Source: Flavobacterium azooxidireducens (GTDB lineage: Bacteria > Bacteroidota > Bacteroidia > Flavobacteriales > Flavobacteriaceae). From it: a stretch of 64,000 nucleotides of DNA. Made by a program: the position numbers and the translations under genes. The stretch is from positions 2,854,001 through 2,918,000 of the forward strand of contig NZ_CP096205.1 in assembly GCF_023195775.1 (NCBI RefSeq), read 5' to 3'. Below are positions 19,623-34,038 of the stretch, one piece after another; the first letter of the stretch is position 1; each line of letters starts with the position of its first letter. The notes beneath the pieces were generated by a model. That model searched no databases. It was not told the origin of the DNA and saw only the letters and a list, made by a program, of their open reading frames with translations.

Positions 19623-20303
19623 TTACTCCGCCATTCGTTTTAATTTATTTTTATCTAAAATCACTATTTTTTTTCCGGTAATATCAATCAAACCTGTTTT
19701 GTTAAATTCAGAAAGTAATCGAATACAACTTTCAGTTGCCGTTCCAATCATTCCTGCTAATTCTTCTCTTGATAATTGAATGTGAAGTGAACCATCTTCA
19801 TTTTTGCCAAAGGTGTCTTCTAAATAGAGCAAAGTTTCAGCTAAACGTTCTTTCACTGTTTTTTGAGCCATTGAAACCATGTGATCATCTGCGTCTTTTA
19901 AATCGCCACAAATAGTTTTCATCATATTCATCGAAAACTGGTTGTTATTGTTGAAAAACCCTAGTACTTCCGATTTAGGAATAAAACAAACCTCCATATC
20001 TTCCAAAGCTACGGCACTCAAATTCGCAGGCTCATCGCTAATCATCGAACGTTGACCCAAAAGTTCACCGGGTTTAACCAATTTTACAATTTGATCTTTT
20101 CCGTTGGCACTTAACTTAGATAGTTTACAAACACCATCTTTAATGCAGTATATACCATTAACAGATTCACCTTCTTCAAAAATAGGTTCACCTTTTTTTA
20201 TGGTGTAAGATGTTTTACAATTAGCCATTTTTAATAGCTCATCTTTGTTTAGGGCTTTTAATGAACTGAATTCCCTCACAATACATTGTTCACATTTGCT
20301 CAT
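19623..20303 (-). CDS. Crp/Fnr-family transcription regulator (likely regulator of cbb3 genes)
   Basis: 226 residues: cyclic-nucleotide-binding-like domain (about 25-140) and a winged HTH (about 150-220). The recognition helix ATESCIRLLSEF keeps the Glu and Arg that in Fnr/Crp contact the TGA half-site. Cysteines lie at the N-terminus (Cys4, Cys7) and at Cys29 and elsewhere, so an oxygen-sensing iron-sulfur cluster as in Fnr is possible but the spacing is not that of E. coli Fnr. It is divergent from ccoI, and a matching palindrome lies between them. Regulation of the cbb3 cluster and hemN is inferred from three such sites. Confidence 0.9.
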   Translation of the reverse strand: MSKCEQCIVREFSSLKALNKDELLKMANCKTSYTIKKGEPIFEEGESVNGIYCIKDGVCKLSKLSANGKDQIVKLVKPGELLGQRSMISDEPANLSAVALEDMEVCFIPKSEVLGFFNNNNQFSMNMMKTICGDLKDADDHMVSMAQKTVKERLAETLLYLEDTFGKNEDGSLHIQLSREELAGMIGTATESCIRLLSEFNKTGLIDITGKKIVILDKNKLKRMAE

Positions 20304-20328: not shown

Positions 20329-20336
20329 CAAAGATA
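20329..20336 (-). promoter_or_regulatory. -7 promoter element of the Crp/Fnr gene
   Basis: Reads TATCTTTG on the minus strand, 26 bp before the start codon. The palindrome at 20345-20358 overlaps the spacer and -33 position of this promoter. Confidence 0.55.
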
Positions 20337-20344
20337 ATTAAAGT

Positions 20345-20358
20345 ATGACAAATATCAT
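20345..20358. promoter_or_regulatory. Crp/Fnr-type palindrome upstream of ccoI
   Basis: ATGACAAATATCAT. Its centre is 36.5 nt from the last base of the ccoI -7 element (20388), the class II activator position. For the divergent regulator gene the same site lies over the -33 region, which would favour autorepression. Confidence 0.7.
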
Positions 20359-20380
20359 ATTTTAATTTTCATCCTTTTGC

Positions 20381-20388
20381 AACCTTTG
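20381..20388 (+). promoter_or_regulatory. -7 promoter element of ccoI
   Basis: AACCTTTG, one base off TAnnTTTG, 22 bp before the start codon; its weakness fits a promoter that needs an activator. Confidence 0.5.
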
Positions 20389-20410
20389 TTACAGGTAAAA
20401 TGAGCAAATT

Positions 20411-22834
20411 ATGAACACTGGAAATTGTTTCCATTGTGGTTTAGAAATCAACAAAAAAGAAGAGATTATTTATGACGAAAAAAGTTTCTGTTGCAACGGT
20501 TGTAAGACGGTTTATGAAATTTTTAGTCAAAATGATTTATCATGTTATTATGATTTTCAAGCATCTCCGGGTGCAACACCACTTGACATTAAAGGTAAAT
20601 ATGATTTTTTAGACAATGAAGATATTGTTTCAAAACTTCTCGAATTCCAAGAGGATACAACACATATTGTTTCACTCTATATTCCTCATATACACTGTAG
20701 TTCGTGTATTTGGATTTTGGAAAATTTACAGAAACTTCAATCAGGAATAATTACTTCGCAAGTAAATTTTCCGGAGAAGAAAGTTAGAATAACATTCAAT
20801 CCCGAAGAAACTTCACTCAAAAAAATAGTTGAACTTCTCTGTTCCATTGGTTATGAACCCTACATCAGTTTAGACAATTTTGATGAAGGTAAAAAAGTCA
20901 TCGACCGAAGTTTGATTTATAAAATTGGAGTTGCTTTTTTCTGTTTTGGAAATATTATGTTGCTCTCGTTTCCTGAATATTTTGAAGTAGAAGAATATTG
21001 GATCAACGAATACCGTGGATTTTTCCGTTGGTTGATCTTTGCTATTTCGCTTCCGGCTTTTTTTTATTCGGCAAGCGGATATTATGTTTCGGCATACAAA
21101 AGCATCAAATCGGGAATGCTCAATATCGATATTCCGATTGCATTGGGGATTGTGGTGATGTTTATCCGAAGCACAGTTGACATCGTATTTGATTACGGCC
21201 AAGGCTTTTTTGACAGTATGACCGGACTGATTTTCTTTATGCTTTTGGGAAAATTATTTCAAAAGAAAACGTATGATTTTTTATCCTTTGAACGTGATTA
21301 TAAATCTTATTTTCCGATTGCAATCACCAAAATTTTAGCAGATGGTTCAGAAACTTCTGTTCAAGTATATGATATTCAAAAAGGGGATCGACTTTTAATC
21401 AGAAACCAAGAATTGATTCCGGTTGACGGCATTTTAATTTCCGAAAAAGCATCTATTGATTACAGCTTTGTAACGGGAGAAGCGGTTGCTATCGAAAAAA
21501 AATCAGGAGACAAAATTTTCGCAGGCGGAAAACAAGTCGGCAAAGTCATCGAAATGGAAGTGCTTTTTTCGGTTTCTCAAAGTTACCTTACTCAATTGTG
21601 GAGTAACGATGTTTTTCAGAAGAAAATTGATATCAAACACAAAACAATCACAGATAAAATCAGTCGATATTTCACACCGGCTTTGCTTGGTTTAGCAATT
21701 ATTTCTTTTTTGTATTGGATTTTCATTGATACCAACACAGCCTTTAATGTTTTTACAGCAATTTTGATTGTAGCTTGTCCGTGTGCATTGGCATTAACCG
21801 CTCCTTTTACGTTGGGAAATGTGTTGCGAATTTTAGGTAAACGAAAATTCTATCTAAAAAATGCCATTGTTATTGAACAATTAGCCAAAGTAGATAGTAT
21901 CGTTTTTGATAAAACAGGAACAATTACAACCAATAAAAAAACGTCTATCACTTATGAAGGAACTCCTTTAACTGATTTTGATTTAAAGTTATTAAACAAT
22001 GCTCTTCGAGGTTCCAATCATCCTTTAAGCAGACGATTGTATGATTTTATTCCCAAACAAATTAAACTTACTCCAACACATTTTGAAGAAGTAATTGGTA
22101 AAGGAATCAATGCAACTTTTGAAGAAGGAACTATAAAACTAGGTTCTTCTCAATTTTTGGAACATATGAGCGAAAACACGCATAAAAAAACCAAAGTACA
22201 TGTTGAAATAAATGGGATTTATAAAGGAAGCTATGTGTTTAATAACCAATACCGAGAAGGTTTAGAGCAGTTATTTCTTCAATTATCAAAAAAGTACAAC
22301 CTTATTATTTTATCCGGTGATAATGATGGTGAACGAAAAATATTGGAGAAAATGCTTCCATCCACTACAAAATTGGTTTTTAATCAAAAGCCGGAACAAA
22401 AACTGGAATATATTGAAGAACTTCAAAAACAAGGCAAAAATGTCATGATGATTGGTGATGGTTTAAACGATGCCGGAGCTTTAGCACAAAGTAACATCGG
22501 GATTTCTATTTCCGAAAATGTTAATGTTTTTTCGCCCGCTTGTGACGGAATTTTGGATGCTTCTCAGTTTCAAAAAATTGGCTTTTTTATGCAGTATTCC
22601 AAAAATGCCATGAAAACAATTTATATGAGTTTTGCACTTTCTTTAGCCTATAATATTGTTGGATTGACTTATGCAGTTTCTGGTAATTTATCGCCTTTAG
22701 TGGCAGCTATTATTATGCCATTGAGCACCATTACTATAGTAAGTTTTGTAACGATTATGACAAATGTTTATGCACGAAACTCGCAACCCGTAACCCGCAA
22801 CTTTCAACCCGCAACAAAAAATAATACTGCATGA
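20411..22834 (+). CDS. ccoI: Copper-translocating P-type ATPase for cbb3 oxidase assembly
   Basis: 807 residues. An N-terminal Cys-rich zinc-ribbon-like domain (Cys6, Cys9, Cys27, Cys28, Cys31) precedes an HMA domain with the metal site HCSSC (Cys96, Cys99). Eight membrane helices hold the CPC metal-transport motif (456-458); the phosphorylation site is DKTGT (Asp500) and the hinge GDGLNDAGAL. This is the CcoI/FixI type of heavy-metal ATPase, exporting copper for the heme-copper centre of CcoN. The stop overlaps the second regulatory palindrome (22831-22844). It starts the cluster ccoI-S-NO-Q-P-G-H. Confidence 0.95.
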   Translation: MNTGNCFHCGLEINKKEEIIYDEKSFCCNGCKTVYEIFSQNDLSCYYDFQASPGATPLDIKGKYDFLDNEDIVSKLLEFQEDTTHIVSLYIPHIHCSSCIWILENLQKLQSGIITSQVNFPEKKVRITFNPEETSLKKIVELLCSIGYEPYISLDNFDEGKKVIDRSLIYKIGVAFFCFGNIMLLSFPEYFEVEEYWINEYRGFFRWLIFAISLPAFFYSASGYYVSAYKSIKSGMLNIDIPIALGIVVMFIRSTVDIVFDYGQGFFDSMTGLIFFMLLGKLFQKKTYDFLSFERDYKSYFPIAITKILADGSETSVQVYDIQKGDRLLIRNQELIPVDGILISEKASIDYSFVTGEAVAIEKKSGDKIFAGGKQVGKVIEMEVLFSVSQSYLTQLWSNDVFQKKIDIKHKTITDKISRYFTPALLGLAIISFLYWIFIDTNTAFNVFTAILIVACPCALALTAPFTLGNVLRILGKRKFYLKNAIVIEQLAKVDSIVFDKTGTITTNKKTSITYEGTPLTDFDLKLLNNALRGSNHPLSRRLYDFIPKQIKLTPTHFEEVIGKGINATFEEGTIKLGSSQFLEHMSENTHKKTKVHVEINGIYKGSYVFNNQYREGLEQLFLQLSKKYNLIILSGDNDGERKILEKMLPSTTKLVFNQKPEQKLEYIEELQKQGKNVMMIGDGLNDAGALAQSNIGISISENVNVFSPACDGILDASQFQKIGFFMQYSKNAMKTIYMSFALSLAYNIVGLTYAVSGNLSPLVAAIIMPLSTITIVSFVTIMTNVYARNSQPVTRNFQPATKNNTA

Positions 22835-22844
22835 CAATTATCAT
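22831..22844. promoter_or_regulatory. Crp/Fnr-type palindrome upstream of ccoS-ccoNO
   Basis: ATGACAATTATCAT, a perfect half-site pair (ATGAC/ATCAT) overlapping the ccoI stop codon. Its centre is 36.5 nt from the last base of TAATTTTG (22874). Confidence 0.75.
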
Positions 22845-22866
22845 ATTTTATAAAATCGAGTAAGTC

Positions 22867-22874
22867 TAATTTTG
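22867..22874 (+). promoter_or_regulatory. -7 promoter element of ccoS-ccoNO
   Basis: TAATTTTG, matching TAnnTTTG, 18 bp before the ccoS start. Confidence 0.55.
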
Positions 22875-22892
22875 TTAACATAAATTTAAGGT

Positions 22893-23087
22893 ATGGGCGT
22901 CATTTACATTTTAATCACCATTAGTATCATCGTGGCTATTTTTTTTCTGTATGCATTTATTAGAGCAGTAAAAAACGGTCAATACGATGATGATTACACT
23001 CCATCCGTCAGAATGCTTTTTGACGATGAACTCAAAATCTCAACAAACAAAAAACCAATACAAACAATTAAAGAAAAACAAGTATAA
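22893..23087 (+). CDS. ccoS: cbb3-type oxidase assembly protein CcoS
   Basis: 64 residues: one membrane helix (about 4-24) followed by NGQYDDDYTPSVRMLFDD, the signature of CcoS (FixS). It is needed for cofactor insertion into CcoN in other bacteria. It ends 2 bp before ccoNO. Confidence 0.92.
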   Translation: MGVIYILITISIIVAIFFLYAFIRAVKNGQYDDDYTPSVRMLFDDELKISTNKKPIQTIKEKQV

Positions 23088-23089
23088 TT

Positions 23090-25282
23090 ATGGAGATGCA
23101 ACAATTTTATTACGACAACAAAATTGTAAAGAAGTTCCTCTACGCATGTATCGTCTTTGGTGTAGTCGGAATGTTAGTAGGCCTCTTATTGGCCATCATG
23201 TTTTTATTTCCCAATTTAACCGATGGAATTTCGTTCCTTAGTTTTGGTAGATTAAGACCTTTACATACCAACGCAGTAATCTTTGCCTTCGTTGGAAATG
23301 CCATTTTTGCAGGTGTTTACTATTCGATGCAACGATTGCTAAAAACCAGAATGTACAGTGATTTACTTAGTAATCTTAATTTCTGGGGATGGCAATTAAT
23401 CATTGTTGCTGCAGCAATTACTTTACCATTAGGTTATTCAACTTCTAAAGAATATGCCGAATTAGAATGGCCAATTGATATTGCCATTGCTTTAATTTGG
23501 GTGGTATTTGGTATTAACATGATTATGACAATTCTGAAACGTAGAGAACGTCATATTTATGTAGCAATTTGGTTTTATATCGCCACATTTGTTACCGTTG
23601 CTATTCTTCATATTTTTAATAGTTTAGAATTACCGGTTTCTGGTTTAAAAAGTTATTCGGTTTATGCCGGGGTTCAAGATGCTTTGGTGCAATGGTGGTA
23701 CGGACACAATGCCGTTGCCTTCTTCCTGACAACACCATTTTTAGGATTGATGTATTATTTTGTTCCAAAAGTGGCTAATCGTCCGGTTTATTCTTACCGA
23801 TTATCTATCATTCACTTTTGGTCGTTGATTTTCATTTATATCTGGGCCGGACCTCACCATTTATTATACACAGCTTTACCGGATTGGGCTCAAAACTTAG
23901 GAGTTGTTTTCTCTGTGATGTTGATTGCTCCATCTTGGGGTGGTATGATCAACGGACTTCTTACATTAAGAGGTGTTTGGGATAAAGTTAGAACCGATGC
24001 AGTGTTAAAATTCTTCGTTGTTGCAATCACCGGTTATGGTATGGCAACGTTTGAAGGACCAATGCTTTCGCTTAAAAACGTTAACGCTATTGCTCACTTT
24101 ACAGATTGGATTATTGCTCACGTACACGTTGGAGCTTTGGCTTGGAACGGATTTATGACTTTTGGTATGATTTATTGGTTAATACCACGAATGACCAAAA
24201 CCAAATTATATTCTGAAAAATTAGCCAATTTCCATTTTTGGATCGGAACATTGGGAATCATATTATATGCATTGCCACTTTATGTTGCAGGATTTACACA
24301 AGCTTCTATGTGGAAACAATTCAATCCAGACGGAACTTTAGTATATGGTAATTTCCTTGAAACAGTTACGCAAATTATGCCAATGTATTGGATGCGTGCC
24401 ATCGGAGGAACATTATATGTTGCAGGTTTACTAGTTTTAGTATATAACGTAATCAAAACAGTTGCTGCCGGTTCAAAAGTAGAAGATGAATTAGCCGAAG
24501 CACCAGCCTTAGCCGTAATTTCTTCAAGAAGAATGAAAGGCGAAAAATGGCATTCTTGGTTAGAAAGAAGACCAATCCAATTTACAGTTTTATCGCTAGT
24601 AGCTATTTTAATTGGAGGTATAATTCAAATTATTCCAACCATAGTAGTGAAATCTAACATACCAACTATCGCTTCTGTAAAACCATATACACCAATGGAA
24701 TTGGAAGGACGTGATTTATACATCCGTGAAGGTTGTGTAGGATGTCACTCGCAAATGATTAGACCTTTCCGTTCAGAAGTAGAACGTTATGGTGAATATT
24801 CAAAAGGAGGAGAATATGTATATGATCACCCATTCTTATGGGGTTCTAAACGTACAGGTCCGGATTTACATAGAGTTGGAGCCAAATACAATGACAACTG
24901 GCATTTCAACCACATGTGGGATCCTCAAAGTACATCTCCTGGTTCAATTATGCCAGGCTACAAATGGTTGTATGACAATGATCCAATGGATTATTCATTA
25001 ATTGAGAAAAAAATGGAAGTGATGGTAACGTTAGGTGTTCCTTATACAGAAGAAGACATTAAAAATGCCAGAAAATCTATCGACGAACAAGGTGCTCAAA
25101 TTGAAAAAAATCTTTATGCCGATCCTGATTTTGTAAAATCGTATGAAGAAAGCAAAAAGAATGCAGCAACTCGTGGCGAAGAATTTGTTCCGATGAAAGA
25201 CAGAGAAATTACAGCGTTAATTGCCTATCTGCAACGTTTAGGAACTGATATTAAAGTAAAAGAAACTGTTCAAAATAAATAG
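23090..25282 (+). CDS. ccoN: Fused cbb3 oxidase subunits I and II (CcoNO)
   Basis: 730 residues joining two subunits that are separate in proteobacteria. The CcoN part (about 1-480) has twelve membrane segments with heme and copper ligands in RLRPLHTNAV, WWYGHNAV, GPHHLLYT and IAHVHVGAL. The CcoO part (about 500-720) is a membrane-anchored monoheme cytochrome c with CVGCH (Cys549-His553), SQMIRPFRSE and TGPDLHRVG. The fusion is known in Bacteroidota. High-affinity terminal oxidase and proton pump of the inner membrane for low oxygen. Confidence 0.96.
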   Translation: MEMQQFYYDNKIVKKFLYACIVFGVVGMLVGLLLAIMFLFPNLTDGISFLSFGRLRPLHTNAVIFAFVGNAIFAGVYYSMQRLLKTRMYSDLLSNLNFWGWQLIIVAAAITLPLGYSTSKEYAELEWPIDIAIALIWVVFGINMIMTILKRRERHIYVAIWFYIATFVTVAILHIFNSLELPVSGLKSYSVYAGVQDALVQWWYGHNAVAFFLTTPFLGLMYYFVPKVANRPVYSYRLSIIHFWSLIFIYIWAGPHHLLYTALPDWAQNLGVVFSVMLIAPSWGGMINGLLTLRGVWDKVRTDAVLKFFVVAITGYGMATFEGPMLSLKNVNAIAHFTDWIIAHVHVGALAWNGFMTFGMIYWLIPRMTKTKLYSEKLANFHFWIGTLGIILYALPLYVAGFTQASMWKQFNPDGTLVYGNFLETVTQIMPMYWMRAIGGTLYVAGLLVLVYNVIKTVAAGSKVEDELAEAPALAVISSRRMKGEKWHSWLERRPIQFTVLSLVAILIGGIIQIIPTIVVKSNIPTIASVKPYTPMELEGRDLYIREGCVGCHSQMIRPFRSEVERYGEYSKGGEYVYDHPFLWGSKRTGPDLHRVGAKYNDNWHFNHMWDPQSTSPGSIMPGYKWLYDNDPMDYSLIEKKMEVMVTLGVPYTEEDIKNARKSIDEQGAQIEKNLYADPDFVKSYEESKKNAATRGEEFVPMKDREITALIAYLQRLGTDIKVKETVQNK

Positions 25283-25284
25283 TC

Positions 25285-25458
25285 ATGCTAAAGTTTATCA
25301 AACACCACATGGATACGATCGTAGGAATTGAAATATATCCTATCATCTCATTGAGCATTTTCTTTGGATTCTTTGTATTGCTTTTAGTGTGGGTATTTTC
25401 CTATAGCAAAGAAACAATCAATGAACTAGGTGATATACCTTTAAAAGAAGATAATTAG
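25285..25458 (+). CDS. ccoQ: CcoQ-like small subunit
   Basis: 57 residues, MLKFIKHHMDTIVGI at the start, one membrane helix (about 18-40), then SYSKETINELGDIPLKEDN. It is 2 bp after ccoNO and 22 bp before ccoP, the exact place of ccoQ, and the FSYSK stretch after the helix matches small cbb3 subunits IV. It is short and therefore easily missed. Confidence 0.8.
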   Translation: MLKFIKHHMDTIVGIEIYPIISLSIFFGFFVLLLVWVFSYSKETINELGDIPLKEDN

Positions 25459-25480
25459 TAAAACCTATTAAACGTAAAAA

Positions 25481-26437
25481 ATGAAAAAATTAATTCCATC
25501 ATACGTCAGAGTTCCATTGATTTTTGCCCTTGTAATGGGTGCTATGGAATATTTTATAGACTCAGGAGACAAACCGGCTTTTATCGAATACCCAATGGTT
25601 GCCTTATTTTTAGGAGTTTTCCTTTTCTTATTGGTCGCCATCGAAATTGTAGTAAGTGCCGTAGATAAAGTAACCTACCACATGCTCTCTGAAGAACAGA
25701 AAAAACAATTGGAGGAAGCACAATCATTACCTTTCACGGAAAGTGCTTTTTATCAAAGTTTGTCAAAAAAATTAACTCGTTCTAAAGAAATCGAAGAAGA
25801 GCACGATATTTTGCTGGACCACGATTATGACGGCATCAAAGAATTAGACAATGTATTGCCTCCTTGGTGGGTGAATTTGTTCTATTTAACTATCATTTTT
25901 GCCATTATTTATTTGGTGAGATTCCACATATACAATGATTATGACCAAGCTACGGAATTTGAAACCGAAATGGCTATCGCAAAAGCAGAGGTTGAAAAGT
26001 ATAAATTAACTGCTCCTGATTTAATGGATAAGGATAAAGTTACTTTATTAACAGATGCAACTGCATTAGCAGAAGGTAAAAAATTATATGAAACAAATTG
26101 TGTTGCATGTCACAAACCAGATGGAGGAGGTTCTATCGGACCAAATCTTACAGATGAACACTGGATTTTAGGCGGAGGTATTAAAAACGTCTTCAATACA
26201 TTAATGGAAGGTGGTCGCGAAGGTAAAGGTATGGTGTCGTGGAAAGCAACCATAAAACCGTCTGATTTGCAAAAAGTAGCCAGTTATGTTTTATCACTTC
26301 AAGGAACAAATCCACCGGATGCAAAACCTGCCGAAGGAGATATTTGGGTCGATGAAAATGCACCAAAAGCCGAAACAATTAAAGATTCTACTGTTACAGA
26401 TTCTACCAAAACAGTGGCAGAAGTTGCCATAAAATAA
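25481..26437 (+). CDS. ccoP: cbb3 oxidase subunit III (CcoP), one heme-binding site
   Basis: 318 residues. Two N-terminal membrane segments (about 8-28, 38-62), a charged stretch, then LPPWWVNLFYLTIIFAIIYL (about 126-148), the CcoP N-terminal domain hallmark. One cytochrome c domain follows with CVACH (Cys207-His211) and SIGPNLTDEHWILGGG. Proteobacterial CcoP has two CXXCH motifs; only one is present here. C-terminal 35 residues are low-complexity. It passes electrons to CcoO. Confidence 0.93.
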   Translation: MKKLIPSYVRVPLIFALVMGAMEYFIDSGDKPAFIEYPMVALFLGVFLFLLVAIEIVVSAVDKVTYHMLSEEQKKQLEEAQSLPFTESAFYQSLSKKLTRSKEIEEEHDILLDHDYDGIKELDNVLPPWWVNLFYLTIIFAIIYLVRFHIYNDYDQATEFETEMAIAKAEVEKYKLTAPDLMDKDKVTLLTDATALAEGKKLYETNCVACHKPDGGGSIGPNLTDEHWILGGGIKNVFNTLMEGGREGKGMVSWKATIKPSDLQKVASYVLSLQGTNPPDAKPAEGDIWVDENAPKAETIKDSTVTDSTKTVAEVAIK

Positions 26438-26442
26438 AAAAT

Positions 26443-26470
26443 ACAAATCCCGTATCAAAGCGGGATTTGT
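26443..26470 (+). terminator. Hairpin between ccoP and ccoG
   Basis: ACAAATCCCG, 8-base loop, CGGGATTTGT. The stem is perfect, but the following T run is weak (TAAATTT), so partial termination or mRNA end protection is possible. Confidence 0.6.
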
Positions 26471-26488
26471 AAATTTAAAAACAAAAGC

Positions 26489-27907
26489 ATGAACAAGTTA
26501 CCCGAAGAAAGCTTTAGAGATACGATCGGAACCATCAATAAAGAAGGTAAAAGAGCTTTTATTCTTCCCAAGAAGCCAAAAGGACCTTTTTACGACAAAA
26601 GAAAACTCTTAAGCTATTTTTTATTAATATTCTTAGTATCCGCACCTTTTATTAAAATTAACGGACATCAGTTCTTGATGTTCAATGTATTAGAAAGAAG
26701 GTTTAATATTTTTAGTTTTCCGTTTTGGCCTCAGGATTTTCACCTTTTTGTAGTTTCCATGATCATTGGGGTAGTAGGATTAGCTCTGTTTACAGTTGCG
26801 TTTGGAAGAATTTTTTGCGGATGGTTTTGCCCACAAACTATTTTTATGGAAATGGTTTTTCGCCGAATCGAATACTGGATTGATGGTGATAGAGGAGCAC
26901 AAATTCGTTTACAAAAACAAGAATGGAACGCCGAAAAAATTAGAAAGAGAGTTACAAAATGGATTATCTTTTTTATATTTTCCTTCCTCATCGCCAATGT
27001 ATTTTTAGCTTATTTGGTGAGTAGTGATCGACTGCTATTAATGATAAAAGAAGGCCCGGCTTTACACACCAGTACACTTATTGCCTTATTGATTTTTACG
27101 GCTGTATTTTATTTCATTTTTGCATGGTTTAGAGAACAAGTCTGCATTATTGCTTGTCCCTACGGAAGAATGCAAGGGGTTTTATTAGACAATAAATCAA
27201 TCAATGTTGCTTACGATTATGTACGTGGTGAAAAAGAATTAGGAAGAGCCAAATTCAATAAACAAGAAGACAGAGCGTCAACCGGAAAAGGAGATTGTAT
27301 CGATTGTAAATTATGCGTTCATGTCTGCCCAACCGGAATAGACATTCGTAACGGAACACAATTAGAATGCATCAATTGCACAGCGTGTATCGACGAATGC
27401 GACACCATCATGGAAAGCGTTGGTTTACCAAAAGGCTTAATTCGATACGCCAGTGAAAACGAAATTGTAAAAAAAGAAAAATTCGTTTTTACCACAAGAA
27501 TGAAAGGCTATGCCGCAGTTTTAGTAATTTTAATTGGTGTTTTAATCGGAATGCTATTTTTGAGAAATGATGTGGAAGCCACTGTTTTGAGACTTCCAGG
27601 ACAACTTTTTCAACATAAAGGGGAAAATATTAGCAACGTTTATACCTATAAAATCGTCAATAAAACAACCAAACAATTTGATGAAGTTACGTTTAAACTA
27701 ATAGAACCAAAAGGTAAAATTATTTTGGTAGGAAAACCAAAAGTAAAAGTAAAACCAGACGGAATTGCCAAAGGAACATTGTTCATAGAAATCAATCCCG
27801 CCTATTTGGAAGGTGACAAAATAAAAATAAAAATTGAAGTCTACGATGGTGAAAATTTAATTGAAACCACCACAACAAACTTCATGGGACCAAGAAGCTT
27901 CAATTAA
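26489..27907 (+). CDS. ccoG: cbb3 oxidase accessory protein CcoG (FixG/RdxA)
   Basis: 472 residues with five membrane segments and a polyferredoxin-like part: CGWFCPQT near residue 110, and two 4Fe-4S motifs DCIDCKLCVHVCPTG and ECINCTACIDECD near 269-310. C-terminal Ig-like domain after about 365. CcoG is known to reduce copper for the oxidase assembly in proteobacteria. It lies in the usual order between ccoP and ccoH. Confidence 0.95.
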   Translation: MNKLPEESFRDTIGTINKEGKRAFILPKKPKGPFYDKRKLLSYFLLIFLVSAPFIKINGHQFLMFNVLERRFNIFSFPFWPQDFHLFVVSMIIGVVGLALFTVAFGRIFCGWFCPQTIFMEMVFRRIEYWIDGDRGAQIRLQKQEWNAEKIRKRVTKWIIFFIFSFLIANVFLAYLVSSDRLLLMIKEGPALHTSTLIALLIFTAVFYFIFAWFREQVCIIACPYGRMQGVLLDNKSINVAYDYVRGEKELGRAKFNKQEDRASTGKGDCIDCKLCVHVCPTGIDIRNGTQLECINCTACIDECDTIMESVGLPKGLIRYASENEIVKKEKFVFTTRMKGYAAVLVILIGVLIGMLFLRNDVEATVLRLPGQLFQHKGENISNVYTYKIVNKTTKQFDEVTFKLIEPKGKIILVGKPKVKVKPDGIAKGTLFIEINPAYLEGDKIKIKIEVYDGENLIETTTTNFMGPRSFN

Positions 27908-27929
27908 TCTTCTTGCTTTAGCTAACTTT

Positions 27930-27949
27930 CATCGGACTTCAGTCCGATG
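27930..27949. repeat. 20-bp palindrome between ccoG and ccoH
   Basis: CATCGGACT, loop TC, AGTCCGATG: a perfect hairpin 16 bp before the ccoH start. Its sequence is unlike its AT-rich surroundings and looks like a dispersed repeat. Confidence 0.65.
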
Positions 27950-27965
27950 TAAAAAAACAAAAATT

Positions 27966-28412
27966 ATGAAAATAAATTGGGGAACAGGAATCGTAATTGC
28001 ATTTGCATTGTTTATGACATTCATTTTATACTTTGTGTTCAAAGTGCAATCAGACAGTAAATATGACAACGAGTTAGTTGTAGAAGAATATTACAAACAA
28101 GAACTCGTTTTTGAAAAACGAATGGAAAAAGAGCAAAACGACAAAAATTTAGCTCTTCCCGTAGAAGTTATCGCTCAAGAAGACGGCTTAAAAATCGTTT
28201 TCCCAACAGATATAGATGCCACAAAAATCAAAGGAAAAGTGTCCCTTTACAGACCGTCTAACCAGAAACTGGATTTTGAAGTTCCGATTTCACTTTCCGG
28301 TTCACATTTGCTCATACCTAAAAACAATTTGGTGGGCGGTCGCTGGGACATTTCCATTGATTGGACTTACGAAGGAAAAGAAATATTAACAAAGAAAACA
28401 ATTTATTTATAG
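27966..28412 (+). CDS. ccoH: FixH/CcoH family protein
   Basis: 148 residues from MKINWGTGIVIAFALF; an in-frame start 105 bp earlier would read through the palindrome and overlap ccoG, and is rejected. One N-terminal membrane helix (about 8-28), then the FixH domain with YYKQELVFEKRMEKEQN near 45 and GRWDISIDWTYEGKE near 124. CcoH is required for cbb3 oxidase stability and maturation. Last of the ccoGH pair before a repeat region. Confidence 0.92.
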   Translation: MKINWGTGIVIAFALFMTFILYFVFKVQSDSKYDNELVVEEYYKQELVFEKRMEKEQNDKNLALPVEVIAQEDGLKIVFPTDIDATKIKGKVSLYRPSNQKLDFEVPISLSGSHLLIPKNNLVGGRWDISIDWTYEGKEILTKKTIYL

Positions 28413-28423
28413 ACAGTTGTCAG

Positions 28424-28490
28424 TTATCCGTTGTCCGTTATCAGACAACCGAGAACCGATAACCGACAACAGACAACCGACAACGGATAA
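28424..28490. repeat. Inverted repeat of GACAAC-type units
   Basis: 28424-28439 (TTATCCGTTGTCCGTT) is complementary to 28475-28490 at 15 of 16 positions; between them lie further copies of GATAACC and GACAACC units. Confidence 0.65.
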
Positions 28491-28600
28491 GAAGCGAATG
28501 GCTCGGGCATTTCCAGCCAACCCTATTCCCGCTTTCCGTTCCAATTTTTTGTTCACGAGCAAAGCTCGCCAACAAAAAGATTTCCACTGCAATCGGGGCT
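28491..28600. repeat. Flavobacterium-type dispersed repeat with hairpin
   Basis: A 110-bp segment with higher G+C than its neighbours. A hairpin pairs TTGTTCACGAGC with GCTCGCCAACAA (28545-28580). On the minus strand it begins AGCCCCGATTGCAGTGG and contains GGAACGGAAAGCGGGAATAG, which I recall as a common intergenic element in Flavobacterium genomes. Open frames crossing it are not credible genes. Confidence 0.55.
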
Positions 28601-28648
28601 AAAAAGGAAACAAATCGCCTACTTGGAAACAAAACCGTAAAACAGAAA

Positions 28649-28703
28649 ACAGACAACCAACAACAGACAACCAACAACAGACAACCGACAACCAACAACA
28701 GAC
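28649..28703. repeat. Tandem 14-bp repeat abutting a start codon
   Basis: Units of ACAGACAACCAACA, two exact and further imperfect, running up to the ATG at 28704. The translation start region of the TauE/SafE-like gene therefore consists of repeat. Confidence 0.7.
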
Positions 28704-29405
28704 ATGCTCTACACCGCCCTCATATTTGGTTTACTCTCCAGCTTCCATTGCATCGGCATGTGCGGCCCAATAGCCATGATGATTCCGGTAGATCGAAACA
28801 ATGCAGCTAAACGAGTTTTTCAACTTTTTCTATATCATTTAGGTAGATTAACTGCGTACGGAATGCTAGGCTTGTTTTTTGGAATTTTAGGAAAAGGACT
28901 TTTTCTTGCCGGTTTTCAACAACAATTATCCATTTTAGTCGGTGTTTTAATGATTCTTTTTGTCATTATTCCCGAAAAAAAAATGGCTCAATACAACTTT
29001 TCTAAACCAATTTATAAGTTGATTTCTAAAGTAAAAAGTCATCTGGGAGCTCAATTCAAAAAGAAAACATTTGATGCCTTATTTACCATCGGTTTATTAA
29101 ACGGATTTTTACCATGCGGAATGGTGTATGCCGCACTTTTTGGTGCAATCGCTATGCAAAACGAATGGCTCGGAGCATCCTACATGATTTTATTCGGAAT
29201 AGGAACAATTCCAATGATGAGTGCCGTGGTGCTGATTTCAAATTTTATAACAGTACCGGTTCGAAACAAAATTCAAAAATTCATTCCCATCATGGTAATC
29301 ATCATTGGAGGATTATTCATCATCCGTGGAATGGGATTAGACATACCCTATATTTCTCCAAAAACAACAAATTTAATCGTTCAGGCAAATCCGGATTGCC
29401 ATTAA
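28704..29405 (+). CDS. Sulfite exporter TauE/SafE family protein of the cbb3 cluster
   Basis: 233 residues, six to seven membrane segments. The N-terminal SSFHCIGMCGPIA motif (about 12-24) and a second NGFLPCGMVYAAL near residue 133 mark the COG2836-type branch, often found at the end of cbb3 clusters in Bacteroidota and related to DsbD-like membrane domains with paired cysteines. A role in copper or redox supply to oxidase assembly is inferred from the position. A strong terminator follows, closing the cluster. Confidence 0.85.
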   Translation: MLYTALIFGLLSSFHCIGMCGPIAMMIPVDRNNAAKRVFQLFLYHLGRLTAYGMLGLFFGILGKGLFLAGFQQQLSILVGVLMILFVIIPEKKMAQYNFSKPIYKLISKVKSHLGAQFKKKTFDALFTIGLLNGFLPCGMVYAALFGAIAMQNEWLGASYMILFGIGTIPMMSAVVLISNFITVPVRNKIQKFIPIMVIIIGGLFIIRGMGLDIPYISPKTTNLIVQANPDCH

Positions 29406-29435
29406 TAAATTTTTTAGTTTTCCAATTTTTTTTTT

Positions 29436-29472
29436 AGCGGACAGAAACTCAAAATGTTGTCCGCTTTTTTTA
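29436..29472 (+). terminator. Terminator of the cbb3 cluster
   Basis: AGCGGACA pairs with TGTCCGCT over a 14-base loop, followed by seven T. Confidence 0.85.
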
Positions 29473-29553
29473 TGCTTGTACCTGATTTTAATCATGTTTT
29501 TTATCCCTAATAAATCCGAAATTTATAGTATTAATTATAAAAAAAGTTAGGAT

Positions 29554-31683
29554 ATGTTACAGTTTGACAGCAAGCACGTAAAAAATGTGGTTTTACTCGG
29601 GCATACCGGAAGCGGTAAGACCACCTTGGCAGAAACCATGTTGTTTGAATCAGGTATAATTCATCGCCGTGGTACCGTGGAAGATCAAAATACCATTGCC
29701 GATTATACAGATATTGAACATGAAAAAGGAAAAACACTTTTTTCAAAATTACTTAATTCTAAATGGAAAGGCTACAAAATCAATATTCTAGACACACCCG
29801 GTTATGATGATTTATCAGGCGATATTATTGCTTCAATGCGGGTTTCAGAATGCGGATTAATGCTTCTTAATGCTCGAATGGGTGTAGAAGTTGGGACCGA
29901 TATTATTTGGCAATATACCAATGAATTCAAGTTGCCAACCATTTTTGCCGTAAACCAGTTGGATCATGAGAAAGCCGATTTCGATAAAACAGTAGCCGAA
30001 GCTAAAGCTCATTTTGGCAATCAAGTTGTCATTGTTCAATATCCGGTAAATCAAGGGCCAAATTTTAATGCTGTGATCGATGTGCTCAACATGGTCATGT
30101 ATCAATATCCTCCCGAAGGCGGAAAACCGGAAAAATTACCAATTCCAAATTCCGAAAAAGAAAAAGCCATTCAGTTACACAAAGAATTAATTGAAACCAT
30201 TGCCGCCAATGACGAACAATTGATGGAAAACTATTTTGAAAAAGGAGAATTAAATGAAGACGAAATGAAATTAGGTTTACATCATTCCTTGATTAAACAC
30301 GAAATTTTTCCTGTTTTTTGTATTTCAGCCAAGCAAAATATGGGCGGTGGTCGATTAATGGGTTTTATTGATAACGTTTGTCCGTCAGCTTACGAAATGC
30401 CACCTCGATTAACCATTGATAACCGTGAAATAGAATGTTCCGATAAAGGTAAAACAGCCATTTTTATTTATAAAACAATTGCAGAACCAAATGTTGGCGA
30501 ATTAAGTTTCTTTAAAGTTCTTTCCGGAACTGTAAAAGTTGGCGACGAATTGACTAATGAAGAAACCGGTCAAGTAGAAAAAATCATGCAGTTGTTTGAA
30601 ATGGAAGGAAACAAAAGAATTGCTGTAGACGAATTAACTGCCGGTGATATTGGTGCGACTTTAAAATTAAAAAACACACATACTAATAACACACTTCACG
30701 AAAAAGGATTTCCTATTGCAATTAAACCAATCGAATTTCCAACACCAACTTTTACCATCGCTGTAGAAGGAACTAAAAAAGGAGAAGAAGAAAAATTATC
30801 ATCTGCTTTACACCAATTAGTAGAAGAAGATCCAAGTATACAAGTAGAAGTTTCTGCCGAATTAAAACAAACACTTTTGCACTGTCAGGGAGAACTTCAT
30901 TTGGCCGTTATCAAATGGAAATTGGAAAACACCTATAAATTATCAGTCAATTTTCAAAAACCAAAAGTGGCTTACCGCGAAACTATTCAAACGGAAGCAG
31001 ACACAACCTACCGTCATAAAAAACAATCCGGTGGAGCAGGGCAATTTGGTGAAATTTCGATGAAGATTTATCCTTTTTCAAAAGATACGCCCGATCCAAA
31101 AGGCTATTCCATCCGTGGAAAAGAAGAAATCGAGTTGCCTTGGGGCGGAAAATTAGTTTATTATAATTGTATTGTTGGCGGTGCGATCGATACGCGTTTT
31201 CATCCTTCCATCCTTAAAGGAATTATGGAAAAAATGCAGGAAGGACCACTCACAGGTTCACACGTGCAAGATGTTTGTGTTGTTGTTTACGACGGAAAAA
31301 TGCACGCAGTGGATAGTAACGACCTTTCCTTTAAAATTGCCGGAATGATGGCTTTTAAAGAAAATTTTGTGAACGCCAATCCGCAATTGTTAGAACCAAT
31401 TTATACCACAATTATTACAGCTCCGGATGAAATAACCGGTTCTGTGATGAGTTCCATTCAATCGCATCGTTCTCTGGTAGAAGGAATGGATGCAGAAGGA
31501 CATTTTACCAAAATTAAAGCGTTAATTCCAATTGCAGAAATGCATGAATTTTCGGCCGCTGTTCGTTCGATATCACAAGGAAGAGCTAAGATAGCCATGG
31601 AGTTTTCGCATTATGATAAAGTGCCTTATGAAATTCAAAACGAATTGATTAAGTCATTCAAAAAAGAATTACAAGAAGTGTAA
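29554..31683 (+). CDS. Elongation factor G-like GTPase (EF-G2 type)
   Basis: 709 residues with the full EF-G domain order. P-loop GHTGSGKTT near residue 16. Switch II reads DTPGY (80-84) where EF-G has DTPGH, so the catalytic His is Tyr84. The G4 motif is NQLD (134-137) instead of NKxD. Such EF-G-like proteins occur beside canonical fusA in many bacteria and their job is unsettled; T. thermophilus EF-G-2 is a studied relative. A translation-linked role is probable, but it should not be called FusA. Monocistronic, with a terminator after it. Confidence 0.9.
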   Translation: MLQFDSKHVKNVVLLGHTGSGKTTLAETMLFESGIIHRRGTVEDQNTIADYTDIEHEKGKTLFSKLLNSKWKGYKINILDTPGYDDLSGDIIASMRVSECGLMLLNARMGVEVGTDIIWQYTNEFKLPTIFAVNQLDHEKADFDKTVAEAKAHFGNQVVIVQYPVNQGPNFNAVIDVLNMVMYQYPPEGGKPEKLPIPNSEKEKAIQLHKELIETIAANDEQLMENYFEKGELNEDEMKLGLHHSLIKHEIFPVFCISAKQNMGGGRLMGFIDNVCPSAYEMPPRLTIDNREIECSDKGKTAIFIYKTIAEPNVGELSFFKVLSGTVKVGDELTNEETGQVEKIMQLFEMEGNKRIAVDELTAGDIGATLKLKNTHTNNTLHEKGFPIAIKPIEFPTPTFTIAVEGTKKGEEEKLSSALHQLVEEDPSIQVEVSAELKQTLLHCQGELHLAVIKWKLENTYKLSVNFQKPKVAYRETIQTEADTTYRHKKQSGGAGQFGEISMKIYPFSKDTPDPKGYSIRGKEEIELPWGGKLVYYNCIVGGAIDTRFHPSILKGIMEKMQEGPLTGSHVQDVCVVVYDGKMHAVDSNDLSFKIAGMMAFKENFVNANPQLLEPIYTTIITAPDEITGSVMSSIQSHRSLVEGMDAEGHFTKIKALIPIAEMHEFSAAVRSISQGRAKIAMEFSHYDKVPYEIQNELIKSFKKELQEV

Positions 31684-31710
31684 ATTCAAAACAAACAAAC
31701 AAACAAACGT

Positions 31711-31737
31711 AAAGCCCGATGAAAGTCGGGCTTTTTA
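31711..31737. terminator. Bidirectional terminator after the EF-G-like gene
   Basis: AAAGCCCGA, 6-base loop, TCGGGCTTT and more T. It overlaps the stop codon of the convergent gene. A (ACAA)n run lies just before it at 31688-31708. Confidence 0.8.
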
Positions 31738-32334
31738 GTAATATTTCTTTAAATCCATTAATTTTTCTTGATTAGGAAAATTGGAAATCGCTTTATCAAG
31801 TTCAATTTTGCCTTGCTCACATTCACTATTTTCATACCTGCATAAATAAGCATAACCTAAACAAATTCGGTATTCAACATCAAATTGATTTGGAATTAAT
31901 TTTGCGGCACTTTTGTATCTAAAAATGGCATTTTCAAAGTTTCCGGTTTCCATCCATTCATCTCCGTCTTTGATTAATAATCGAAAAGCTTTCTTAGTTT
32001 CAGATGGGATGATTTCTGTAACAACAGGCTTGTTCTTTTCATTGTATAAATAAAACTCGTAGGTTAAAAGCACACAAATTAAAATAATAAAAGTGAAAAG
32101 AACTAAATTGATGATGGAGCGTTTTTTCTGTTTAGAAATAAATTTTTTCCGAATAGTTGCTAATTCTTCTGGAGTAGCAGTTTTATGATTAAAATTTTCA
32201 CCGCAAATTTCAGCGTATTTTAGTTTTGTTTTTAAGTAGTCTGTCCGATGTTCAATAAAAGAATGGCGTTTGCGTAACAAAGCTCTGTTATTTTTCATAA
32301 CAGTATTCATAGCTTGTGTTCCAAAACTCCACAT
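31735..32334 (-). CDS. Hypothetical membrane protein with TPR-like C-terminus
   Basis: 199 residues, not recognised. An N-terminal basic, helical part (1-85) precedes one membrane helix (about 90-112, INLVLFTFIILICVLL). The C-terminal part has a tetratricopeptide-like stretch (WMETGNFENAIFRYKSAAKLIPNQ, in short WMETGNFENAIFRYKSAAK) and a second helical repeat ending EQGKIELDKAISNFPNQ. Its predicted topology puts the TPR part outside or in the periplasm. Possible start alternatives at codon 9 or 13. Single gene, convergent with the EF-G-like gene. Confidence 0.65.
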   Translation of the reverse strand: MWSFGTQAMNTVMKNNRALLRKRHSFIEHRTDYLKTKLKYAEICGENFNHKTATPEELATIRKKFISKQKKRSIINLVLFTFIILICVLLTYEFYLYNEKNKPVVTEIIPSETKKAFRLLIKDGDEWMETGNFENAIFRYKSAAKLIPNQFDVEYRICLGYAYLCRYENSECEQGKIELDKAISNFPNQEKLMDLKKYY

Positions 32335-32404
32335 ATCATCTCATTTAATGATTATTTTACGTGAAGATTCAATTTAAAGTTACAAGTTTGAAAAATTATT
32401 TTTT

Positions 32405-33763
32405 CTAAACCGTCATCGAAAACAACTTTGTTTCAGGCTTGTTTCGGTTCATCCGTAAATCAAAAGCCATGCAAATATTTCGAATGTAAGGCTTTCCTTT
32501 TTCGGTTACAGATAATGAATGATTGGTGATGATAATTAATCCATCCTGTTCCATTTCACTCAGACTTTCTAGTACTTGATTGATTTCAGAAAAATAAAAA
32601 CCATATTCATGCCAAGAAGTATGCAATTGACACATAATATTCAAAATGTGTTTGCGAATAATCAAATCTTCATCGGTTAAAAGATGACCTCTAAAAACCG
32701 GCAATTCATTTTTTTCCAAACAGGCATAATATTCTTCTAATGTTTTTACGTTTTGAGCAAAACTGTACCAACTATCGCTGATGGATGAAACGCCTAAACC
32801 AATCATAACTTGTGTTTTAGATGAGGTATAACCCATAAAATTTCGATGCAGTTTTCGTTCTTGAAACGAATGATACAAACTGTCTGTTTCCAATGCAAAA
32901 TGATCCATTCCGATTTCGTGATAACCATTTTCGGAAAGGCGTTTTTTACCTAATTCATACAACTGGCGTTTTTCTTCATCTTTCGGTAGATCTTCATCTT
33001 TAAAACCGCGTTGGCCATTTCCTTTTATCCACGGAACGTGAGCATAACTGTAAAAAGCCAATCGATCGGGTTGTAGTGAATTGGTTTTATCAATCGTATC
33101 AATCACATCTTCAACGGTTTGAAACGGCAACCCAAAAATTAAATCATGACCAACCGAAGTATAACCAATTTCCCTCGCCCAAAAAGTCACTTTGGCCACA
33201 TCATGAAATGTCTGAATACGATGAATCGCTTTTTGCACTTTTTCGGAATAATCTTGAACGCCAAAACTAACTCTGCGAAAGCCCAAATCATATAATTTTT
33301 GAAGATGTGTTCGTGTGGTATTGTTGGGATGACCTTCAAAACTAAATTCGTGATTCGGGTGCTTAATTGCATTTTCAAATAAACCATTAATCAATCGTTC
33401 TAAATTTTCGGGTGAAAAGAAGGTCGGGGTGCCACCACCTAAATGGATTTCTTTGATAATTGGTTTTTTGGGTAATATTTCGCAATACAGTTGCCATTCT
33501 TTTAAAACGGCATCAATATAAGGATGTTCCACATCATGACGTTTAGTAATGCGTTTATTGCACCCACAAAACGTACACAAACTCTCGCAAAAAGGCAAAT
33601 GAATGTATAAACTAATTCCTTCGGAAGTGTTGCTTTGCACAAATGATTGTTGAAGGGTTTCTTTCCAATCGGCTACCGAAAAACCGTCTTCATCCCAATA
33701 AGGAACTGTAGGATAACTGGTGTATCGCGGACCTGGAACATTATATTTTTGAATCAATGACAT
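32405..33763 (-). CDS. hemN: Oxygen-independent coproporphyrinogen III oxidase
   Basis: 452 residues, radical SAM enzyme. Cluster ligands in CESLCTFC (Cys59, Cys63, Cys66); N-terminus KYNVPGPRYTSYPTVPYW is the true HemN signature and separates it from HemW. GGGTPTF near 110 and the HemN C-terminal domain are intact. It decarboxylates coproporphyrinogen III to protoporphyrinogen IX without oxygen, feeding heme to the cbb3 oxidase under low oxygen. A Crp/Fnr-type palindrome lies 124 bp upstream, at the same spacing as in the cco promoters. Confidence 0.96.
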   Translation of the reverse strand: MSLIQKYNVPGPRYTSYPTVPYWDEDGFSVADWKETLQQSFVQSNTSEGISLYIHLPFCESLCTFCGCNKRITKRHDVEHPYIDAVLKEWQLYCEILPKKPIIKEIHLGGGTPTFFSPENLERLINGLFENAIKHPNHEFSFEGHPNNTTRTHLQKLYDLGFRRVSFGVQDYSEKVQKAIHRIQTFHDVAKVTFWAREIGYTSVGHDLIFGLPFQTVEDVIDTIDKTNSLQPDRLAFYSYAHVPWIKGNGQRGFKDEDLPKDEEKRQLYELGKKRLSENGYHEIGMDHFALETDSLYHSFQERKLHRNFMGYTSSKTQVMIGLGVSSISDSWYSFAQNVKTLEEYYACLEKNELPVFRGHLLTDEDLIIRKHILNIMCQLHTSWHEYGFYFSEINQVLESLSEMEQDGLIIITNHSLSVTEKGKPYIRNICMAFDLRMNRNKPETKLFSMTV

Positions 33764-33856
33764 CTTTTTAACGCTTTTTTTAAAACAGTAAAAAGTTAAG
33801 AATAAATGAGAACATTTTCATCCTAACTTCTCACTATCGAAGTAAAAATATAATTC

Positions 33857-33864
33857 AAAGGTAT
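33857..33864 (-). promoter_or_regulatory. -7 promoter element of hemN
   Basis: TACCTTTG on the minus strand, matching TAnnTTTG, with its last base 36.5 nt from the centre of the palindrome at 33887-33900. It implies a leader of about 90 nt. Confidence 0.6.
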
Positions 33865-33886
33865 TGGTGTTGGTTTAAAAAAAAAA

Positions 33887-33900
33887 TGATAATTGTCATA
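33887..33900. promoter_or_regulatory. Crp/Fnr-type palindrome upstream of hemN
   Basis: ATGATAATTGTCAT, the exact reverse complement of the site at 22831-22844. Between this site and the HMG-CoA lyase start at 34054 no other clear regulatory element is seen. Confidence 0.75.
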
Positions 33901-34038
33901 CTGATTTTTTACTGTTTGAAAGAGAAAATACAAACTGCTATTTTTTTTTAAATCTTTAATAATCATGCTATTATTTGAATGAATTCAACAGATATAATAT
34001 TTTCATTGAAAACGATTTCGTAGGAAAAATTTCTTTCC

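Follow-up and report, generated by a model that had tools for sequence, protein, structure and literature searches.

Crp/Fnr proteins control cbb3 oxidase and hemN genes in Proteobacteria, as in the FixK, Anr and FnrL regulons, and FNR itself, with S212, recognises a TTGAT site and acts from class I and class II positions. The locus described here lies in a 64,000 nucleotide (nt) stretch of the Flavobacterium azooxidireducens genome (a single contig of 3.82 Mb), the whole of which is called the window, and contains a Crp/Fnr regulator gene next to ccoI, ccoS and a fused ccoNO, with hemN further along (Table 1). Palindromes of one kind were found before ccoI, ccoS-ccoNO and hemN at an identical distance from a promoter box, and the reading we consider likely is that an FNR-type transcription factor with a cluster on C4, C7, C53 and C106 controls a cco/hemN regulon by class II activation and represses its own gene. 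At low oxygen the regulator would probably hold a [4Fe-4S] cluster on these four cysteines, dimerise and bind TGAYAWWTRTCA; from -41.5 it would then activate sigma-A promoters with a TAnnTTTG -7 box, the predicted targets being ccoI, hemN, ccoS-ccoNO with the genes that follow it, and about 20 others.

FNR of E. coli and A. fischeri is an oxygen sensor whose oxygen-labile [4Fe-4S] cluster drives dimerisation. The regulator shares with it the CRP fold, an N-terminal CxxC, a cysteine like C122 and a recognition helix with Glu and Arg, together with targets of the cbb3/hemN type, sites at -41.5 and a probable negative autoregulation. A cyclic nucleotide-binding-like beta-roll and a Crp-type helix-turn-helix place it in the Crp/Fnr superfamily, as had been recognised in a preliminary description of this DNA which overlooked the FNR-type cysteines and the unusual place of one of them; the closest solved fold is the P. 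gingivalis Crp/Fnr protein 2gau. C4, C7 and C106 of the regulator align with C20, C23 and C122 of FNR (cluster ligands numbered as in PMC4214427), so that the CxxC and the distal cysteine of the E. coli type are present, whereas the third N-terminal ligand, C29, has no counterpart: Ser13 stands at the aligned place and a beta-roll cysteine, C53, is invariant instead. The curated NCBIfam scores for Fnr and FnrL were not reached (91.6 of 228 bits and 74 of 300 bits), and the FnrL and FixK matches fell far under the cut-off. The regulator further differs from FNR in having Ile194, which is invariant, in place of S212, in a site whose first base is A or C, T being found in 1% of 140 sites, where that of FNR starts with T, and in being paired with the Bacteroidota TAnnTTTG promoter, a promoter type other than that of the FixK, Anr and FnrL regulons.

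Conservation of the cysteines was followed in an alignment of 95 rows, duplicates included (L167 is the window itself and L201 equals L193). C53 was present in every row with four cysteines, and all four were absent together in 11 rows. Rows with neither all nor none were of several kinds: C7 and C106 were kept in four rows, C4, C7 and C106 in three, and C53 and C106 in two (L240, L219); the others were the second rows of L193 and L201, and L074, for which the start was miscalled and CSMC could be read further upstream. We infer from this comparison an FNR-type oxygen sensor with one cluster ligand relocated. It is unlikely, in our judgement, that the cluster sits on C4, C7, C106 and another residue with C53 being structural, which would make the protein merely FNR in a new phylum; the alignment of three ligands with FNR, the position of C53 within a beta strand of the core and the existence of other cysteines (C29 in 37/95 rows, C59 in 40/95, one at positions 8-20 in 16/95) would all suit such an arrangement, but C53 is kept and lost with the other three, four orthologues are without any further aligned cysteine, and the paralogues with C106 and extra N-terminal cysteines (7 rows) have no C53. 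A four-cysteine site would suit zinc equally, and the predicted targets include a peroxiredoxin and a pyridine-nucleotide disulphide oxidoreductase, as might be expected if the cysteines bound zinc or formed a thiol switch and oxidative or nitrosative stress were sensed rather than oxygen. This we regard as improbable, given that three of the cysteines occupy FNR cluster positions and that genes for a microaerobic oxidase and for oxygen-independent haem synthesis make up the core targets, genes of a kind that is induced by oxygen limitation in F. psychrophilum according to PMC9723704.

Within the window the promoter geometry was the same at ccoI, ccoS and hemN. The last G of the -7 box was at 20388, 22874 and 33856 respectively, in each case 36.5 nt from the centre of the palindrome, as the preliminary description had proposed. 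Its coordinates held for the first two palindromes and boxes; the hemN palindrome lies at 33886-33899 and not 33887-33900, and the hemN box ends at 33856 and not 33857. The boxes do resemble TAnnTTTG as claimed, those of ccoS and hemN being perfect and that of ccoI having one mismatch, and the left TGA of the second palindrome (22832-22834) is the stop codon of ccoI. The relaxed palindrome TGAYNNNNRTCA alone was not enriched in the window (8 vs 5.3 expected), as chance palindromes in an AT-rich genome would predict. In contrast, ATGAYNNNNRTCAT was found 3 times vs 0.36 expected, and a palindrome with TTTG at the exact distance 3 times vs 0.14 expected, with 0/100 shuffles reaching 3. This exact spacing and its conservation across genera leave chance a negligible probability.

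For comparison across genomes we took the 80 best of 591 stretches encoding a CcoNO relative, in which 658 palindromes were counted, each place once and on either strand. TAnnTTTG followed the palindrome with a gap of 23 nt in 89 cases, 22 in 6 and 24 in 5, with minor peaks at gaps of 9-10 (17) and 45 (20) and at most 4 at the remaining gaps, while three controls with altered patterns, each with fewer instances (382, 146 and 170) than the real pattern, gave at most 1 at any gap. All except one of the cases at gap 9-10 faced the regulator gene. Those at gap 45 included copies upstream of ccoS and ccoNO and close to hemN, several of them accompanied by another copy at gap 23 that was often weaker; a few were elsewhere, one within ccoNO. 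Since the flavobacterial promoter box is at -12 to -5 in F. psychrophilum (PMC9723704), a palindrome at gap 23 is centred at -41.5, and with these box positions as reference the predicted sites are placed as in class II Crp/Fnr-dependent promoters. Across 140 sites where AnnTTTG stood at gap 23, the core was TGAYAWWTRTCA, and the preceding base was A in 63%, C in 30% and T in 1%.

Individual promoters were scored for a perfect palindrome from 350 nt upstream to 40 nt inside the gene and for a box at gap 22-24 having no more than one mismatch. A palindrome was present at ccoI in 51/63 loci, at ccoS in 65/77 and at hemN in 21/31, and palindrome plus box in 45, 59 and 21 of these loci. The same test was nearly empty at ccoG (2/76), ccoP (0/51) and a dsbD-like gene (2/68). 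The -41.5 placement and the motif held at orthologous ccoI, ccoS and hemN promoters with their exact spacing retained. Both ccoI and ccoS had strict sites in 31 of 63 testable loci, in line with the earlier suggestion that copper ATPase and oxidase can be tuned separately. When the box had to be a strict AnnTTTG, the counts were 37/39 at ccoI, 35/47 at ccoS and 20/24 at hemN among the 48 loci whose CcoNO is at least 77% identical, and 8/24, 12/30 and 1/7 among the remaining 32 loci; the arrangement weakens with growing distance. The first T of the box was present in only 7/45 strict sites at ccoI (missing in 38) as against 47/47 at ccoS and 21/21 at hemN; the ccoI promoter is off consensus as a rule. 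In Pedobacter-like loci (L073, L086, L090, L091) a Crp-type regulator with what appeared by eye to be a receiver-like N-terminal part was found near hemN, with palindromes at gap 45 and a weaker copy closer to the box; perhaps a different sensor acts there on a similar regulon.

The first palindrome is also 22.5 nt, centre to last G, from the regulator's own -7 box, which corresponds to about -27.5, a position expected to be repressing, and active protein bound at this ccoI palindrome would probably limit its own synthesis. In 18 of the 38 regions compared, window included, the shared palindrome was 22.5-24.5 nt away from the last G of the TAnnTTTG box that serves the regulator. Four regions (L031, L032, L035, L046) had it at 36.5 nt from the regulator's box and likewise from the ccoI box, so that it would activate both divergent promoters, and the remaining 16 had another distance, no exact box or no palindrome. 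All four fell inside one group of 7 rows (support 90) in a regulator tree which omits L167, both L201 rows, the second L193 row, L219 (internal stops) and, as thinning, the odd-numbered rows of L168-L190. Autoregulation may be positive in these four and negative in Flavobacterium, as judged from site positions.

The preliminary description had spoken of a three-site regulon and proposed a genome-wide scan, which instead pointed to roughly 25 sites. The composite of palindrome and box occurred 42 times in this genome with at most one mismatch vs 12 for the reversed pattern, and 12 times exactly vs 0 for the control. A scoring profile was made from relatives' sites, so ccoI, ccoS and hemN are favoured in it by construction. 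It gave a score above 12 to 26 of the 42 composites, 25 of which were no more than 215 nt from the start codon of an open frame, while 15 of the 16 lower-scoring composites were inside an open frame of at least 150 codons. The high-scoring sites precede ccoS, hemN, ccoI, methylmalonyl-CoA epimerase, peroxiredoxin, cytochromes c, YceI, acetyl-CoA hydrolase/transferase, a Crp/Fnr paralogue, phosphoenolpyruvate carboxykinase, OmpW, a disulphide oxidoreductase, Rrf2, an HMA-domain protein, Usp, CBS and rhodanese proteins and some genes of unknown function. When 56 of 70 exact sites, those listed, from seven other genomes were added, hemN was preceded by a site in 8/8 genomes and ccoS-ccoNO in 6/8; sites before YceI, a cytochrome c, Usp and other genes recurred in 2-3. 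A protein of about 500-600 amino acids (aa) without a Pfam or NCBIfam match (L159:3-1490) had a site upstream here and in two other genomes, and a similar-looking protein in Pedobacter (L091 near 1406) was also preceded by one; it is a candidate regulon member of unknown kind.

Sites and regulator also occurred together. In a set of 296 genomes of the phylum, 59 had a regulator match (E 1e-60 or better) and contained 361 exact composites (control 8), 9 of them having none; the other 237 contained 163 (control 16), and 164 of them had none. The genomes are related to each other, so the Mann-Whitney p of 2.9e-21 is not to be taken literally, and four family members without a strong regulator match nonetheless had 3-9 sites. 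This co-occurrence, the palindrome common to the regulator's own promoter and the Glu/Arg helix, found to be kept as first described, agree with the earlier proposal of the window protein as the putative activator. The most exact composites among the 296 genomes (28) were in a distant member of the phylum, G271 (L193, L201), which has two adjacent Crp/Fnr genes.

In another family of the same order, f2, the regulator is still beside ccoI-ccoS-ccoNO (four loci) with its recognition helix kept and all four cysteines lost. Its regulator-ccoI palindrome was at gap 43 from the box in five loci and 44 in one, or about -61.5, and palindromes upstream of ccoS were at gaps 11 and 35 in 3/4 loci. A regulon-wide shift to -61.5 was considered and rejected: in 31 f2 genomes gap 43 gave 11 composites (control 2) vs 81 at gap 23 (control 3), and the shift is thus recognised at ccoI only. 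Those 81 had a core of A..T in 6, T..A in 29 and others in 46, compared with 31, 5 and 32 among 68 listed of 82 composites in eight genomes of the window's family (Fisher 3.5e-9 for A..T vs T..A). We hold it moderately probable that Bacteroidota have an FNR architecture of their own, in which C53 of the beta-roll, instead of a residue in the N-terminal loop, would be the third ligand, tying the cluster to two core strands. The ligand set would then have disappeared from at least one lineage, whose sites have changed, and autoregulation would have switched sign between lineages with the position of the shared palindrome.

Four T..A boxes also occur in this genome at 2.53-2.55 Mb, before Rrf2, a cytochrome c, an iron-sulphur repair protein (RIC/ScdA) and an unknown gene. 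They keep the same spacing (genome 2.531-2.552 Mb; L130, L131, L158-L160, L301), and a DNR-like Crp/Fnr paralogue is encoded there (genome 2550648), itself preceded by an A..T box. With its similar helix (ETVIRTL) in a stretch rich in related boxes, this or another paralogue might be thought to bind the cco and hemN sites. We find that very improbable: the other boxes of the stretch differ, by eye, from the cco and hemN sites in having T..A rather than A..T as their core, the promoter of the paralogue itself has an A..T box, as that of a target would, and of the two only the window regulator adjoins cco and shares the ccoI palindrome. A cascade from the window regulator to the DNR-like regulator would be a fair guess.

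According to PMC9723704, cbb3 oxidase and haem synthesis are induced at low oxygen in F. psychrophilum; its main text contains none of the words Fnr, Crp and palindrome. Crp/Fnr homologues of Flavobacteriales, described as MalR-like and likewise Bacteroidota Crp/Fnr proteins, were assigned to carbon sensing in PMC8510549. Among the open-access literature matches listed there was no flavobacterial FNR regulon or such a cysteine set; most subscription journals and regulon databases were outside this scope, and novelty is accordingly provisional. Through the three identically spaced palindromes, an FNR-like oxygen sensor very probably turns on both anaerobic haem synthesis and the high-affinity oxidase. 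If so, the locus provides a predicted oxygen regulator for a large family of environmental bacteria, an exact promoter rule (palindrome, 23 nt, TAnnTTTG) for scanning any genome of the family, and a naturally occurring alternative to the ligand set of the best-studied iron-sulphur oxygen sensor. Lineages without the four cysteines or with a moved shared site would then be natural comparisons of how cluster and site position set the response.

Table 1. Promoter elements and genes of the cco and hemN region (window positions).
Feature	Position	Strand	Remarks
FNR-type regulator gene	19623..20303	-	226 aa; CRP-like sensor fold and helix-turn-helix; C4/C7/C53/C106 jointly conserved
Regulator -7 box	20329..20336	-	TATCTTTG
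Palindrome 1	20345..20358	none	ATGACAAATATCAT; common to divergent regulator and ccoI promoters
ccoI -7 box	20381..20388	+	AACCTTTG; first T missing, one mismatch to TAnnTTTG
ccoI-like copper P-type ATPase	20411..22834	+	Pfam/NCBIfam
Palindrome 2	22831..22844	none	ATGACAATTATCAT
ccoS-ccoNO -7 box	22867..22874	+	TAATTTTG; perfect TAnnTTTG
ccoS	22893..23087	+	Pfam/NCBIfam
ccoNO, fused	23090..25282	+	Pfam/NCBIfam
ccoQ-like (FixQ) short gene	25285..25458	+	Pfam match below cut-off
ccoP	25481..26437	+	Pfam/NCBIfam
ccoG	26489..27907	+	Pfam/NCBIfam
hemN, oxygen-independent coproporphyrinogen III oxidase	32405..33763	-	NCBIfam/Pfam assignment
hemN -7 box	33856..33863	-	TACCTTTG; perfect TAnnTTTG
Palindrome 3 (hemN)	33886..33899	none	ATGACAATTATCAT on minus strand

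Gene calls in the window were concordant with Pfam and NCBIfam for the Crp/Fnr protein, the CcoI-like copper ATPase, CcoS, fused CcoNO, CcoP, CcoG and HemN, and CcoNO of F. covae (87%) was among the best matches to the window CcoNO. The hemN promoter is flanked by a 16-nt inverted repeat (94%; window 33779-33921) present as a single copy in the genome. A repeated element carrying this promoter was considered and rejected, the genome having no second copy except a 33-base stretch at 88%. The distance from the hemN box to the start codon was 92 nt here vs 0-24 nt in seven other genomes.

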